A stretch of DNA of 64,000 nucleotides from the NCBI GenBank assembly GCA_024280395.1, contig JAJRQG010000096.1, forward strand, positions 1-64,000, in the 5' to 3' direction. The position numbers and the translations under genes are program-made. The notes below the pieces were generated by a model. The model did not search any database. It saw nothing but the letters and a program-made list of their open reading frames with translations, and was not told where the DNA came from. Below, piece after piece: positions 15,980 through 21,573 of this stretch (position 1 is the first letter of the stretch; every line of letters begins with the position of its first letter). The stretch is from Gammaproteobacteria bacterium. Lineage in GTDB: Bacteria > Pseudomonadota > Gammaproteobacteria > Xanthomonadales > Marinicellaceae.

Positions 15980-16843
15980 ATGAAAAAATGTGTGATCCTT
16001 AGCATGGATACCTTAGATGAATTTGTCACTTATGATAAATTATTAGACCAACCGATGGCAGAATGTGGCTGGCAAACCCACCATGTTTCTTGGCGCAAGA
16101 AAAATGTAGATTGGTCTCAATTTGAAGCAGTAATCATTCGTTCTACTTGGGATTACCAAGAGGATGCAGAATCTTTTATGCAAGTATTGGCAGAGATTGA
16201 AAATTCTGGGGCGGTTTTATTGAACTCACATGCTATTGCTGAATGGAATATCAATAAGAATTACTTGCGCGAAGTAGAACAAAAAGGAGCAAAAGTCATT
16301 CCTACCATTTGGTTGGAAACGTTTGATTATTCATTAATTGAAAATTATTTCAATCATTTCAATACCCAACAAATCGTGATTAAACCCACTATCAGTGCCA
16401 ATTCAGACAATACTTTTTGGTTAAAAAGGGAAGACTATCATCAACACAAAAAATTGCTTGAAGCTTCATTGCGCAACCGTCAACTAATGGTTCAACCTTT
16501 TATCCCTGCCATTGTTGAGCAGGGTGAATATTCTTTATTTTATTTTGCAGGAGATTTCAGCCACTGTATTTTAAAGACCCCAAAATCGGGTGATTTTCGA
16601 GTACAAGAAGAACACGGCGGCTTGCTCAGTAGTATTGACCCAAATGAAGAATTATTAACAGCTGCTCAAAAGGCATTAAAAACAATCCCTGAAAAAGTTT
16701 TGTACGCTCGAATTGACTTGGTGCAATTTCAAGGTCAATACCAACTGATGGAAATTGAACTGATTGAACCCTCCTTGTATTTTAATTTGGATAAAATTGC
16801 CGCAACCCGATTTTCTAAAGCCTTTGCTAAATGGATGAATTAA
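15980..16843 (+). CDS. ATP-grasp family protein (glutathione synthetase/RimK-like)
   Basis: STWDYQED, VIKPTISANS, RIDLVQ...LMEIELIEPSLYF. Confidence 0.85.
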   Translation: MKKCVILSMDTLDEFVTYDKLLDQPMAECGWQTHHVSWRKKNVDWSQFEAVIIRSTWDYQEDAESFMQVLAEIENSGAVLLNSHAIAEWNINKNYLREVEQKGAKVIPTIWLETFDYSLIENYFNHFNTQQIVIKPTISANSDNTFWLKREDYHQHKKLLEASLRNRQLMVQPFIPAIVEQGEYSLFYFAGDFSHCILKTPKSGDFRVQEEHGGLLSSIDPNEELLTAAQKALKTIPEKVLYARIDLVQFQGQYQLMEIELIEPSLYFNLDKIAATRFSKAFAKWMN

Positions 16844-16904
16844 CAAAATATTAATATAGAAAGTGTTATGATGGTATCAGATTCTTTACTCAGCTAGAGA
16901 ATCT

Positions 16905-17100
16905 AAAATATTATAGGTGCTGAATTAGTTTTTAGTGAAAAGGGAATCTGGTTAAAATCCAGAGCTACCCCCGTAACGGTTATTGGGCGTACATTTGAGA
17001 TTCACCACTGGTTTTATTTATTCAGCGTAGCAATTATGTAAGAATAAGTAATTTCTGGGAAGGTTCAGATGCAGCCCCATAAGTCCGGAGACCTGCCTAT
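16905..17100 (+). promoter_or_regulatory. Cobalamin (adenosyl-cobalamin class) riboswitch
   Basis: Characteristic order: aggtgc, aaaaGGGAAtctGGTtaaaatCCagagctaCCCCCGtaacggt, ccactg, gGGAAGG...GATGcagcccc, B12 box aagtccggagacctgcc at 17081-17097. Confidence 0.95.
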
Positions 17101-17153
17101 CATTGAATAACAATAAAACTTTTTGCGGCGGGCAAAATGACAAGGAGATAACA

Positions 17154-20066
17154 ATGAAAAAATTAATTCTAACTTTAAGCACAATTTTGTTTGCTGTTTA
17201 TTCGCATGCAGTGAATCTAAGCACCACAGGCACGGGTCAAGTTCTGATTTTTCCTTATTACACGGTTAATAATGATATTAATACCTTGATTAATTTGGTT
17301 AATACAACCGATCAATCAAAAGCATTAAGGGTTAGGTTTCGAGAAGCGGCCAATAGCCGAGAAGTGTTTGCTTTTAATTTGTATCTAGGCCCGCATGATG
17401 TTTGGACAGGGGCATTGGTGGAAGATTATATCAACAATGAAGTGATAACAAAAATCATCAGTATAGATAATTCTTGTACGATCCCTGATTTAAAACTTGC
17501 TGGTCAATTGTTTTATAACAGCAACTTTACGGGTGACATGAGTGATGCCTATGGCAATTCCACCAATCGAATGTATGAAGGATTTGTAGAAGTCATTGAA
17601 ATGGGAGTTGTTACTGGTGACAGTGCGGCTGCTACAATCATGAGCAATGGTGTTGCCAATTGTTCTGTTATAGGTGATGCTTGGGACAGTAATTCTGGCA
17701 ATCCTTATTGGACAGTAAATCCCAATACTGATATGTCAGTACCCACGGGAGGTATTTTAGGCAACTTGATATTGATTGATGTAAATACAGGTATAGCAAT
17801 AACCGAAGAAGCCACTGCTTTGAATACTTTTAGCGATGAGGTTCTACATTTTGCTGTTGAAAATGATTCTCCTACTCTTGCTGATGGGATGACTCAGTCT
17901 CAAATAAACTATAACAATACCGTTTATGAATTTGATTGGGAATTTGGTTTTCAAGCGGTGAGTTCTATTTTAATGAAAAATTCTATAGCCAATGAATATG
18001 TGTTAGATGATTCAATAGGTTCTAACACAGACTGGATGATCTCTTTACCAACACGACAGTTTCATACGGATATTGAACTCACAGGTGGTAATTTTCCACT
18101 GCCCCCATTTACTTTTATTAACTCTTCAGGTATTGCTTGTGAGCCATTTGCGGTTACGGGATTGTATGATAGAGAAGAACAAGCGCCATCTGTGCCGCCA
18201 ACAACTGTAATAGGCCTCCCGCCTCCTGGCATAGAACCATTTATACCTGCATTCTGTCATGCGACAAATTACTTAACCATGTTTCGAAATGATGATACTA
18301 TTAGTATTCCTCAGGGAATATTCGGAAGTCATTATGTTGTTGGGAGTTTAGCAAATACAAACACCTCTACATACGGTCTTCGTCTGCCTTTTCAAGAGGG
18401 TTGGGTTCAGTTTTCTTTTACTGGGAATCCTAATAGTGGAGTCGCTCAATCTATGACAATAGATGATACCAGTATTATGGGTTTACCAATAATTGGTTTT
18501 TCCGTACAAAGGTATGTCAATGGTAATTTTGAAAATGGCGTTCTGGCCAATTATGCAGGGATTTTTAATCATAAATCAACTCGTTTAATACAGAGTGATA
18601 CAACGCCCACTGATGTCAGTTCAACGGCGAGCATATCGGCTGATGGCACTGGTCAGGTGTTATTGTTTCCTTATTACACGGTCAGAAATGGCTTGAACAC
18701 CTTAATTTCTCTAGTCAATACCACCGATGAAGTCAAAGCCCTTAAAATTAGATTCAACGAAGGCAAAAATGGCCGTGAAACCTTGGATTTTAATATATAT
18801 CTAAGTCCTTATGATGTCTGGACGGCAGCATTAATAAGTACAGTTTCAACTTATCCAGAGGAAGGGCAGCCCACTGTAAAAATAATTACCACCGATACTT
18901 CTTGTACGGTTCCTGCAATCAATGGACAAGATTTTTTTCCCTTTGCTTTTACAGGTGCATTTGATGATGGTCAAGGCACAAGTATGGAGCGAACTCAAGA
19001 AGGTTTTTTTGAAATCATTGAAATGGGCACTGTCATTGGTAGTGATGCTCTTGCTGCCACTCATGTTGGAGGAAGTCCTGCCAGTTGTGCCACAATCAAT
19101 GGCAATTGGACGCCTGTTATTGGTCAGTGGATTATTGACCCTGCGGAAAATATATTGCCCCCAGATGGCAGTGGTGGATTGTATGGTTCAGTTAGTTTGA
19201 TCGATGTAGCTGGTGGGGTAGATATGACCTATGATGCCACTGCTATTGTGGGTTATAGTACTGAATTACAACACACGGACCCAGGAAGCTTAATGCCCAA
19301 TTTATCAACGGGCAGCAACCAAACGAGTTTAATTGAAACAGAACAGGGGTTTCTTGAAGTGAGTTGGGATTCTCCACTAGATGCGGTTTCATCATTGTTT
19401 ATGTACGATGAGATTATTAACGATTATGTTATCAATGATACAATTAATGCCAGTACAGATTGGGTGAATACTTATCCGACTAAGGCCTTTTATACCGACC
19501 CATTTAACAACAATATTGTTCCTTTACAACCTTTTACTTCTGTATTAACTGACGATATTGGTGCCTGTGAAGAGCTGTATTTCTCGTCTTACAACAGAGA
19601 GCAACAAGCCAATGCAAAATTTGGACCAATACCCAGTCCTACTCCGCCAGGCAATTATCGGTTTAAGCATTGCTACTCTGTAAATGCCTCTTATGTAGAT
19701 GATGCACAAGAGTTGTTGGTTGATACCAATGTTACAACATCCATTTTTGGGTCAAATTTAATCCCCGTAGATTGGATAGTGTTCAATGGCTTGAGTCCTA
19801 TCTATCATTTAAACTCGCAAGAGGGATGGATGCAGTCTAAGCTCAGTGACTTTGATCCCCCCGATATTTTTGATAGCCCCAGTTATATTGTCGGCACAGG
19901 GACCAATGGAGAAACCATAGAGATGTTTGGCAAACCGGTATTGGGTTTTGTTGCTCAAAAATATGTTAACGGGACCCTGGAGGGTGGAGTTTTGGCCAAT
20001 TATGCTGTTATCAATATGAATAAAGGTAAAAGGAAAATTGTTGTTAGTTCTGCAAAGAACAATTAA
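17154..20066 (+). CDS. Large secreted protein with two tandem homologous ~450-aa halves; unknown function; riboswitch-controlled
   Basis: Signal peptide MKKLILTLSTILFAVYSHA; STTGTGQVLIFPYYTVNNDINTLINLVNTTD vs SADGTGQVLLFPYYTVRNGLNTLISLVNTTD; both halves end GF..Q.YVNG..E.GVLANYA; SD aaggag at 17142. Confidence 0.85.
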   Translation: MKKLILTLSTILFAVYSHAVNLSTTGTGQVLIFPYYTVNNDINTLINLVNTTDQSKALRVRFREAANSREVFAFNLYLGPHDVWTGALVEDYINNEVITKIISIDNSCTIPDLKLAGQLFYNSNFTGDMSDAYGNSTNRMYEGFVEVIEMGVVTGDSAAATIMSNGVANCSVIGDAWDSNSGNPYWTVNPNTDMSVPTGGILGNLILIDVNTGIAITEEATALNTFSDEVLHFAVENDSPTLADGMTQSQINYNNTVYEFDWEFGFQAVSSILMKNSIANEYVLDDSIGSNTDWMISLPTRQFHTDIELTGGNFPLPPFTFINSSGIACEPFAVTGLYDREEQAPSVPPTTVIGLPPPGIEPFIPAFCHATNYLTMFRNDDTISIPQGIFGSHYVVGSLANTNTSTYGLRLPFQEGWVQFSFTGNPNSGVAQSMTIDDTSIMGLPIIGFSVQRYVNGNFENGVLANYAGIFNHKSTRLIQSDTTPTDVSSTASISADGTGQVLLFPYYTVRNGLNTLISLVNTTDEVKALKIRFNEGKNGRETLDFNIYLSPYDVWTAALISTVSTYPEEGQPTVKIITTDTSCTVPAINGQDFFPFAFTGAFDDGQGTSMERTQEGFFEIIEMGTVIGSDALAATHVGGSPASCATINGNWTPVIGQWIIDPAENILPPDGSGGLYGSVSLIDVAGGVDMTYDATAIVGYSTELQHTDPGSLMPNLSTGSNQTSLIETEQGFLEVSWDSPLDAVSSLFMYDEIINDYVINDTINASTDWVNTYPTKAFYTDPFNNNIVPLQPFTSVLTDDIGACEELYFSSYNREQQANAKFGPIPSPTPPGNYRFKHCYSVNASYVDDAQELLVDTNVTTSIFGSNLIPVDWIVFNGLSPIYHLNSQEGWMQSKLSDFDPPDIFDSPSYIVGTGTNGETIEMFGKPVLGFVAQKYVNGTLEGGVLANYAVINMNKGKRKIVVSSAKNN

Positions 20067-20103
20067 CCTTTAAGAAATTGGTGAAGTCACTTATAATCAT
20101 CTG

Positions 20104-20631
20104 ATGATTCGATTTATCACACTGGTTTTTATATTTTATTCAGCCTCTTCAATTTCGCAAAAATTTGATGACCGTTGGTATTGGAACATCAATGCGGGCA
20201 TTGTTGTGCCTGATGATTCTTTGCAGTTCAATGATGCGACTTATTATGATTTGCGTGCGGGAAAAAGTATCAACGAAAAATGGTCGTATGAGATTCAATT
20301 GTTTACCGATGAATACGATTTTGATATTGACTATGGGTTGAAACACCGTGGAATTGCGATTAATTTCTTAGACATCAATCAAGAGCCTTTGTGGAAACCC
20401 TATTTTTTAATGGGAGCTGGAATGATTTATCATGAAAGTCCAACAGAGTCAGGCACAAATATGTTTTTAAACATTGGTGTAGGGGGCAGTTGGTATTTCT
20501 TTGGTGATAATATTCGTCTAAGGGCCGAAGCAGTTTCAAGACTGGATTTGAACAATACCAATTTGCCCGGACAGGATGGCTTTGGTGACGGAATTTTTAC
20601 ATTGGGACTGACGATTCCTATTGGCCATTGA
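20104..20631 (+). CDS. Outer-membrane beta-barrel protein (OmpW/OmpX/OmpA-barrel-like)
   Basis: Signal peptide, alternating hydrophobic strands, C-terminal GIFTLGLTIPIGH. Confidence 0.65.
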   Translation: MIRFITLVFIFYSASSISQKFDDRWYWNINAGIVVPDDSLQFNDATYYDLRAGKSINEKWSYEIQLFTDEYDFDIDYGLKHRGIAINFLDINQEPLWKPYFLMGAGMIYHESPTESGTNMFLNIGVGGSWYFFGDNIRLRAEAVSRLDLNNTNLPGQDGFGDGIFTLGLTIPIGH

Positions 20632-20745: not shown

Positions 20746-21573
20746 ATGCACAGTACACTATTGAATAAATTAGAACAATGGCAATCTCGTCAAGTATCTG
20801 AAAATTCGGACATCAATCTAAAATGGTTGTCTCAACATGTGGTTGATTGTAAGAGAATCAATTTAAATATCAATCCATGGGTGTTTTCGAATATTCCAAA
20901 AACAGCGGGCAAAGCTTTAGATAACTATTTGACCCAATCTTTTGCTTTGGCAGATATATTGCATATTAATTCGGATGAGCTCAATCAGTTGCCTCAATCA
21001 ATTTATATGAAAAATGTATACCCTAAGGCAATAACCGGGCAGTTCTCCACCAGTGACTTGTTGTATCAATTGTTGCCGGATCAAGAGATAGTGCATTTAT
21101 CGATGATGCGCGACCCTGTTTATCGGGTGATTTTTATTTACAATGACATTGCCACTACTGCTTATCATGCCATGGACAAGAGCGTAGAAACCATGGATTT
21201 TGATACGTTTATTCGGCAAGACAATAGCGAAATCAACAACGGGCAGGCCAAACGCTTTGCAGGATTGCTTTCGGAAGTTGACACAAAAATAAGTGACAGA
21301 GAGTTGTACGAAAAAGCCAAATATGTGGTGGACAATTGCTTTTCATTGGTGGGAATTTCTGAACAGTTCAAGCAATTTTATGAATTATTGGGCAGGTGTT
21401 GCGGCATTCGTTTTCACAATTTACCACCCATTGTTAGATCTAAATTAAAAGTCCAATTGTCCGATGTTGGCGATCAGCAATTGGCCTTGATCAAAGAAAA
21501 AAATAGGGTGGATATCCAGCTTCACCATTATGTTAAATCAAAGTTTGAAGATTATCTGTCAGAGTTTTTATAA
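20746..21573 (+). CDS. Sulfotransferase-family protein
   Basis: PAPS-site-like FSNIPKTAGKALDNYL and MMRDPVYRVIF. Confidence 0.7.
   Translation: MHSTLLNKLEQWQSRQVSENSDINLKWLSQHVVDCKRINLNINPWVFSNIPKTAGKALDNYLTQSFALADILHINSDELNQLPQSIYMKNVYPKAITGQFSTSDLLYQLLPDQEIVHLSMMRDPVYRVIFIYNDIATTAYHAMDKSVETMDFDTFIRQDNSEINNGQAKRFAGLLSEVDTKISDRELYEKAKYVVDNCFSLVGISEQFKQFYELLGRCCGIRFHNLPPIVRSKLKVQLSDVGDQQLALIKEKNRVDIQLHHYVKSKFEDYLSEFL

Follow-up and report, generated by a model that had tools for sequence, protein, structure and literature searches.

The window, a stretch of 64,000 nucleotides from a marine bacterium of a genus near Marinicella, carries a cobalamin riboswitch followed by a gene for a large secreted protein. 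Both lie on the forward strand, as do the genes on either side. On the left is the gene for a RimK/GshB-like ATP-grasp protein (positions 15980-16843; Pfam PF02955/PF08443), which is the syntenic neighbour in related genomes. The riboswitch aptamer (RF00174) occupies positions 16898-17114, and the secreted protein, 970 aa long and made of two related domains, is encoded at 17154-20066. An ORF for a 175-aa outer-membrane barrel (20104-20631) begins 37 nt past the stop codon of the two-domain gene. Farther right, a 275-aa protein (20746-21573) gave a weak sulfotransferase-like match (PF13469, E 0.047, below the cut-off); it is absent from the same place in two relatives, G006 and G010.

The riboswitch was the sole RNA element that an Rfam scan returned from the whole window. 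Its cmscan score of 100.8 bits (E 4.9e-24) stands far above the gathering score of 31.5, and the alignment covers all 189 positions of the model (1-189). The L5 loop, CCCCCG, lies at 16968-16973 and the B12 box, AGTCCGGAGACCTGCC, at 17082-17097, both inside the aptamer. Thus, the covariance scan proposed in the initial annotation upheld its reading of a complete cobalamin riboswitch ahead of the ATG of a secreted protein. Cobalamin riboswitches mostly mark genes for B12 transport, B12 synthesis or B12-independent isozymes. As that annotation had also remarked, no btu, cbi or metE gene adjoins the present one; a riboswitch-controlled btuB does occur in the same genome, on another contig.

Downstream from the aptamer, a P13/L13 hairpin, TTTTGC(GGCGG)GCAAAA (17121-17137, forward strand), presents the kissing partner of L5 and is followed on the same strand by the Shine-Dalgarno sequence AAGGAG (17142-17147) and by the ATG at 17154. 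The same hairpin was found in the riboswitches of the genus that were examined, with a P13 loop reading GGNGG (TGTGG in one) and a purine-rich ribosome-binding site and ATG closely after it; all three riboswitches of the window genome share this arrangement. Among 12 distinct sequences, 100% of the P13 and L5-L13 cells were paired, a percentage biased upward because the hairpins came from a search for stems of this kind. This bias weighs less on the substitution in the kissing loop and on the variant stem sequences. Four pairs are changed on both sides, three in P13 and a compensatory one in the kissing loop, a number reached by none of 500 shuffles. The kissing-loop change belongs to a riboswitch preceding a gene for an FG-GAP protein (see below), where L5 reads CCCCAG and the C-to-A substitution is matched by G-to-U in L13 (UGUGG).

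This architecture resembles the translational RF00174 switch of the Escherichia coli btuB type in having a complete aptamer, a B12 box, an L5-L13 interaction and P13 placed before the Shine-Dalgarno sequence, and differs from it in the target, which here is an uncharacterised secreted protein and not btuB, cbi, metE or nrd. Stabilisation of P13 by the L5-L13 kissing loop is the experimentally established OFF mechanism of translational cobalamin switches (PMC10653944). An activating corrinoid switch is also on record (PMC10653944), so that the OFF direction is a prediction in the present case. By analogy, high intracellular cobalamin would be bound by the aptamer, L5 (CCCCCG) would kiss L13 (CGGCGG), and P13, stabilised beside the Shine-Dalgarno sequence, would repress translation of the two-domain protein. 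Counting against this scheme, the Shine-Dalgarno sequence is unpaired in the minimum-free-energy fold, where a block of the ribosome by P13 is not visible.

The window genome (G000) has a split MetH and gave no match for MetE or for CbiL, the single gene by which B12 biosynthesis was assessed; the organism is therefore probably a B12 scavenger that needs an external supply. Its two other cobalamin riboswitches precede a gene for a btuB-like TonB-dependent receptor, on another contig, and one for an FG-GAP/VCBS secreted protein of 1118 aa (L010 1308-4664, reverse strand). The latter riboswitch (L010 4746-4930, reverse strand), which carries the compensatory kissing-loop change, lies about 80 nt 5' of its gene and identifies a second non-canonical target; the same pairing of riboswitch and FG-GAP protein recurs in the related genome G007 (L078). 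Within the genus, every genome from which a riboswitch was recovered has one before btuB. The targets that could be identified elsewhere in the order were btuB, from BLAST, together with metE and nrdA, recognised by eye from the first residues, which points to the two-domain and FG-GAP targets as an addition made in this genus.

The product of the two-domain gene starts with a signal-peptide-like sequence and consists of an N domain (residues 20-485, approximately) and a C domain (approximately 486-970). The two halves are 40% identical, in agreement with the earlier description of a duplicated secreted protein. Searches with the protein and its family against Pfam, NCBIfam, PHROGs and PDB sequences produced no meaningful match. 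AlphaFold2, supplied with 64 homologues, modelled the C half confidently as a beta-rich structure (pLDDT 90, pTM 0.92), for which Foldseek found no match at E 0.001 among PDB structures and viral models. Some weak Foldseek matches suggested a galectin-like fold; they span one sheet only and were not taken as evidence. The same sequence searches, together with the fold search of the C half, recognised no corrinoid-binding family or fold and no adhesin domain or fold, and literature searches yielded no report of the family or of the regulon. An unrelated characterised family, the finding that would have told against the initial reading, thus did not emerge from the Pfam, NCBIfam and PHROGs models or from solved folds.

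Homologues are widespread, occurring in at least 81 of the 101 genomes of the order among the matches listed. A type II secretin gene adjoins the domain gene at 22 of the 55 loci examined, in operons that also encode GspJ, K, L, M, C/N and D along with a lipoprotein-like and a PpiC-like protein. The domain of the window protein is 54% identical to the paralogue beside gspD; the window gene itself lies outside any GspD-containing operon. One such type II secretion operon (L011 4100-15382) includes the conserved single-domain gene beside gspD, a gene for a PpiC-like protein and an ABC-2 permease gene; operons of this type are conserved across Lysobacterales and some Betaproteobacteria, and their single-domain protein is a candidate for a dedicated substrate of the system. 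The other single-domain paralogue has the RNA of RNase P (class A; L012 6298-6683) just 3' of it, encoded on the opposite strand.

No cobalamin riboswitch was detected with Rfam at any of 51 single-domain loci scanned, and a motif scan with a sensitivity of about 79% agreed. The idea that homologues are generally under riboswitch control was therefore rejected, none having been found outside the two-domain clade among those scanned. The initial annotation had asked whether homologues are consistently preceded by B12 riboswitches: the answer was negative at all loci scanned outside the two-domain clade and positive for the two-domain orthologues of G007, G010 and G008.

A maximum-likelihood tree groups all of the N halves in one clade and all of the C halves in a second, each with 100/100 support, the C clade being nested among the single-domain copies of the genus and the N half sitting on a long branch. 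Since each half is monophyletic, the two-domain form arose once, within the genus. Orthologous loci were identified from their flanks, with the ATP-grasp gene to the left and the barrel gene to the right; most relatives are represented by fragmented MAGs, and several two-domain genes (in G005 and part of those in G007 and G008) begin at contig ends, where a missing riboswitch is uninformative. Of the species keeping the gene, two have an intact riboswitch (the window species and G007), three a degraded one and two none. The G007 riboswitch scores 110.8 bits and is the closest to that of the window (77% identity); after it come, in this order, a short ORF and a gene of the two-domain family, and tandem copies lie on other contigs. 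At this locus (G007 L077 2851-3627) the short ORF has a Shine-Dalgarno sequence of its own and the two-domain gene follows about 270 nt later. In G010 the riboswitch is shortened and has CCCGATACC in place of TCCGGAGACC as its B12 box, a replacement that probably impairs it. Because short riboswitches also precede btuB in G002 and G008, we considered whether the G010 element might be a normal short form; the altered B12 box led us to reject this. The riboswitch of G008 is truncated, with an altered B12 box and a score of 30.3 bits, just below the gathering score, and in G006 only a remnant persists. G002 has two full gene copies and a fragment in tandem, and G001 a single copy, all without a riboswitch. 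A pseudogene remnant lacking the riboswitch is found in G009, and in G004 the two-domain gene is missing, the barrel gene directly following the ATP-grasp gene.

This graded series of orthologous loci, together with the intact copy of G007, suggests that the ancestor of the two-domain genes already had the riboswitch, which was probably lost repeatedly thereafter. It also shows the link to B12 to be labile, given the tally of intact, degraded and absent riboswitches. One could accordingly ask whether the window riboswitch is itself a decaying relic of little regulatory consequence, as its degradation or absence at several orthologous loci might imply. We regard this as unlikely: aptamer, kissing loop, P13 and Shine-Dalgarno sequence are all intact in the window genome, a state that, like the score of the G007 copy, is hard to explain without selection.

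The initial annotation had placed a small barrel protein 37 nt after the stop codon of the two-domain gene, and the 175-aa protein proved to have the eight-stranded fold of the OmpA type. Its model (pLDDT 79) matched OmpA, Ail, OprF and NspA best among PDB structures, with a Foldseek E of 8.6e-07 to OmpA and TM scores of 0.70/0.78 to NspA. The further proposal, that the two proteins make up one B12-responsive surface system, fared otherwise. The short intergenic distance speaks for it, as does the presence of the barrel gene after the two-domain gene in G000, G002, G006, G007, G008 and G010. The barrel is, however, found family-wide (identity about 53-78%), whether or not the two-domain gene accompanies it; apart from its position in G004, it stands beside unrelated genes in G001 and G005, and it is far better conserved than the two-domain protein (about 77% versus 47%). 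Moreover, a TATAAT sequence precedes the barrel ATG by 6-7 nt in all 10 sequences of the genus compared (two of them identical), with no Shine-Dalgarno sequence between. In the window this is the -10 element of a putative promoter, TTAAGA-16-TATAAT (20070-20097, forward strand). Promoter and terminator scans performed at chance level overall; the conserved spacing of the motif and the missing Shine-Dalgarno sequence suggest that the barrel gene has its own promoter and a leaderless mRNA. A dedicated two-gene system was thus rejected as very improbable, and the barrel is an independent, separately expressed neighbour rather than a partner. It shares the OmpA/OprF/NspA fold as a stand-alone protein and is, on this evidence, not under riboswitch control.

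Taken together, these data make it fairly likely that a functional cobalamin riboswitch controls a single gene as a translational OFF switch, and that this gene encodes a secreted surface protein made under B12 scarcity. Aptamer, expression platform, covariation, regulon partners and family history were read directly from the DNA, and the response to the ligand is, like the OFF direction, predicted from them. B12 scarcity would allow synthesis of the two-domain protein, and its signal peptide would direct it across the inner membrane. From there it would probably leave the cell through the type II system, the one with the ancestral single-domain paralogue in its operon; this secretion route is likewise a prediction. 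The gene would belong to a small B12 regulon, together with btuB and the FG-GAP surface protein, in a B12-dependent organism. The most likely job of the protein would be binding at the surface or outside the cell when B12 is scarce, either to capture cobamides or to attach the cell to a B12 source or partner; its ligand is a guess. Some features of the relatives count against this explanation: the protein is kept where the riboswitch is truncated, reduced to a remnant or absent (G010, G008, G006, G002 and G001), a short ORF separates switch and gene in G007, and the gene has decayed to a pseudogene in G009 and is missing from G004.

Two sharper versions of this explanation, whose probabilities overlap with its own, differ in what the protein would bind. 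In one, it is a fast-evolving adhesion or other surface protein from a family linked to type II secretion; it came under B12 control for ecological reasons, such as attachment to algae or to B12-producing partners, and binds no corrinoid. Rapid divergence argues for this (47% identity between species, versus 72-83% for the products of flanking genes), as do the tandem copies in G002 and G007, the pseudogene of G009, the empty site of G004 and the frequent location of the family in type II secretion operons. Precedent comes from ppe2 of Mycobacterium tuberculosis (PMC11260477), the nearest case in which a gene of uncertain function is preceded by a B12 riboswitch. There too control is of the translational OFF kind (which we infer here), and the ppe2 leader contains a uORF, much as a short ORF lies between switch and gene in G007. 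The ppe2 operon differs in also holding cobQ/cobU, its riboswitch is a class IIb variant, and the protein family is unrelated. Against the adhesion reading stands the failure of our searches to recognise an adhesin domain or fold, and we rate it a serious possibility, somewhat short of even odds. It ranks slightly ahead of corrinoid capture because the riboswitch has been lost where the protein is kept and because the wider family lacks a B12 link.

In the other version, the two-domain protein is an extracellular corrinoid binder feeding BtuB, a functional analogue of BtuG and BtuH with a new fold. In Bacteroides, several once-unknown surface proteins under corrinoid riboswitches bind B12, among them BtuH, a binder without known structural homologue (PMC6143338, PMC8941943, PMC12751083). 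The likeness extends to the setting, a B12-scavenging, MetH-only bacterium (PMC6143338, PMC8941943), and the window gene would be co-regulated with btuB by the same type of riboswitch in a B12-dependent genome. BtuG and BtuH differ in being encoded within B12 transport loci, BtuG as a seven-bladed propeller and BtuH as Ig-like PKD domains joined to a binding domain. The two-domain gene lies outside the btuB operon, btuB being on another contig, and its product resembles neither protein: with regard to BtuG, Pfam gave no match and the best PDB fold matches of the C-half model included no propeller; with regard to BtuH, there was no Pfam match at E values up to 1 and no significant PDB fold match of that model. 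Of the two surface proteins preceded by riboswitches, the one with FG-GAP repeats is the more propeller-like candidate. Also weighing against corrinoid capture are the 51 scanned family loci with no B12 link, the frequent association of the family with type II secretion operons and the retention of the protein in species without the riboswitch. We therefore hold this reading to be tenable but rather improbable. More doubtful still is its broadest form, in which the two-domain protein, a duplicated type II secretion-linked surface protein recruited to the B12 regulon alongside btuB and the FG-GAP protein, would be the founding member of a class of extracellular corrinoid binders with a new fold in Gammaproteobacteria.

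When a well-formed riboswitch precedes the gene of an uncharacterised secreted protein, it provides a direct lead to that protein's physiology. In this marine gammaproteobacterial genus it points to an extended response to B12 scarcity, comprising btuB and two uncharacterised surface proteins, and it names a family matching no solved fold as a candidate for corrinoid binding. The related genomes, for their part, show the link between a riboswitch and its target being lost stepwise inside one genus.
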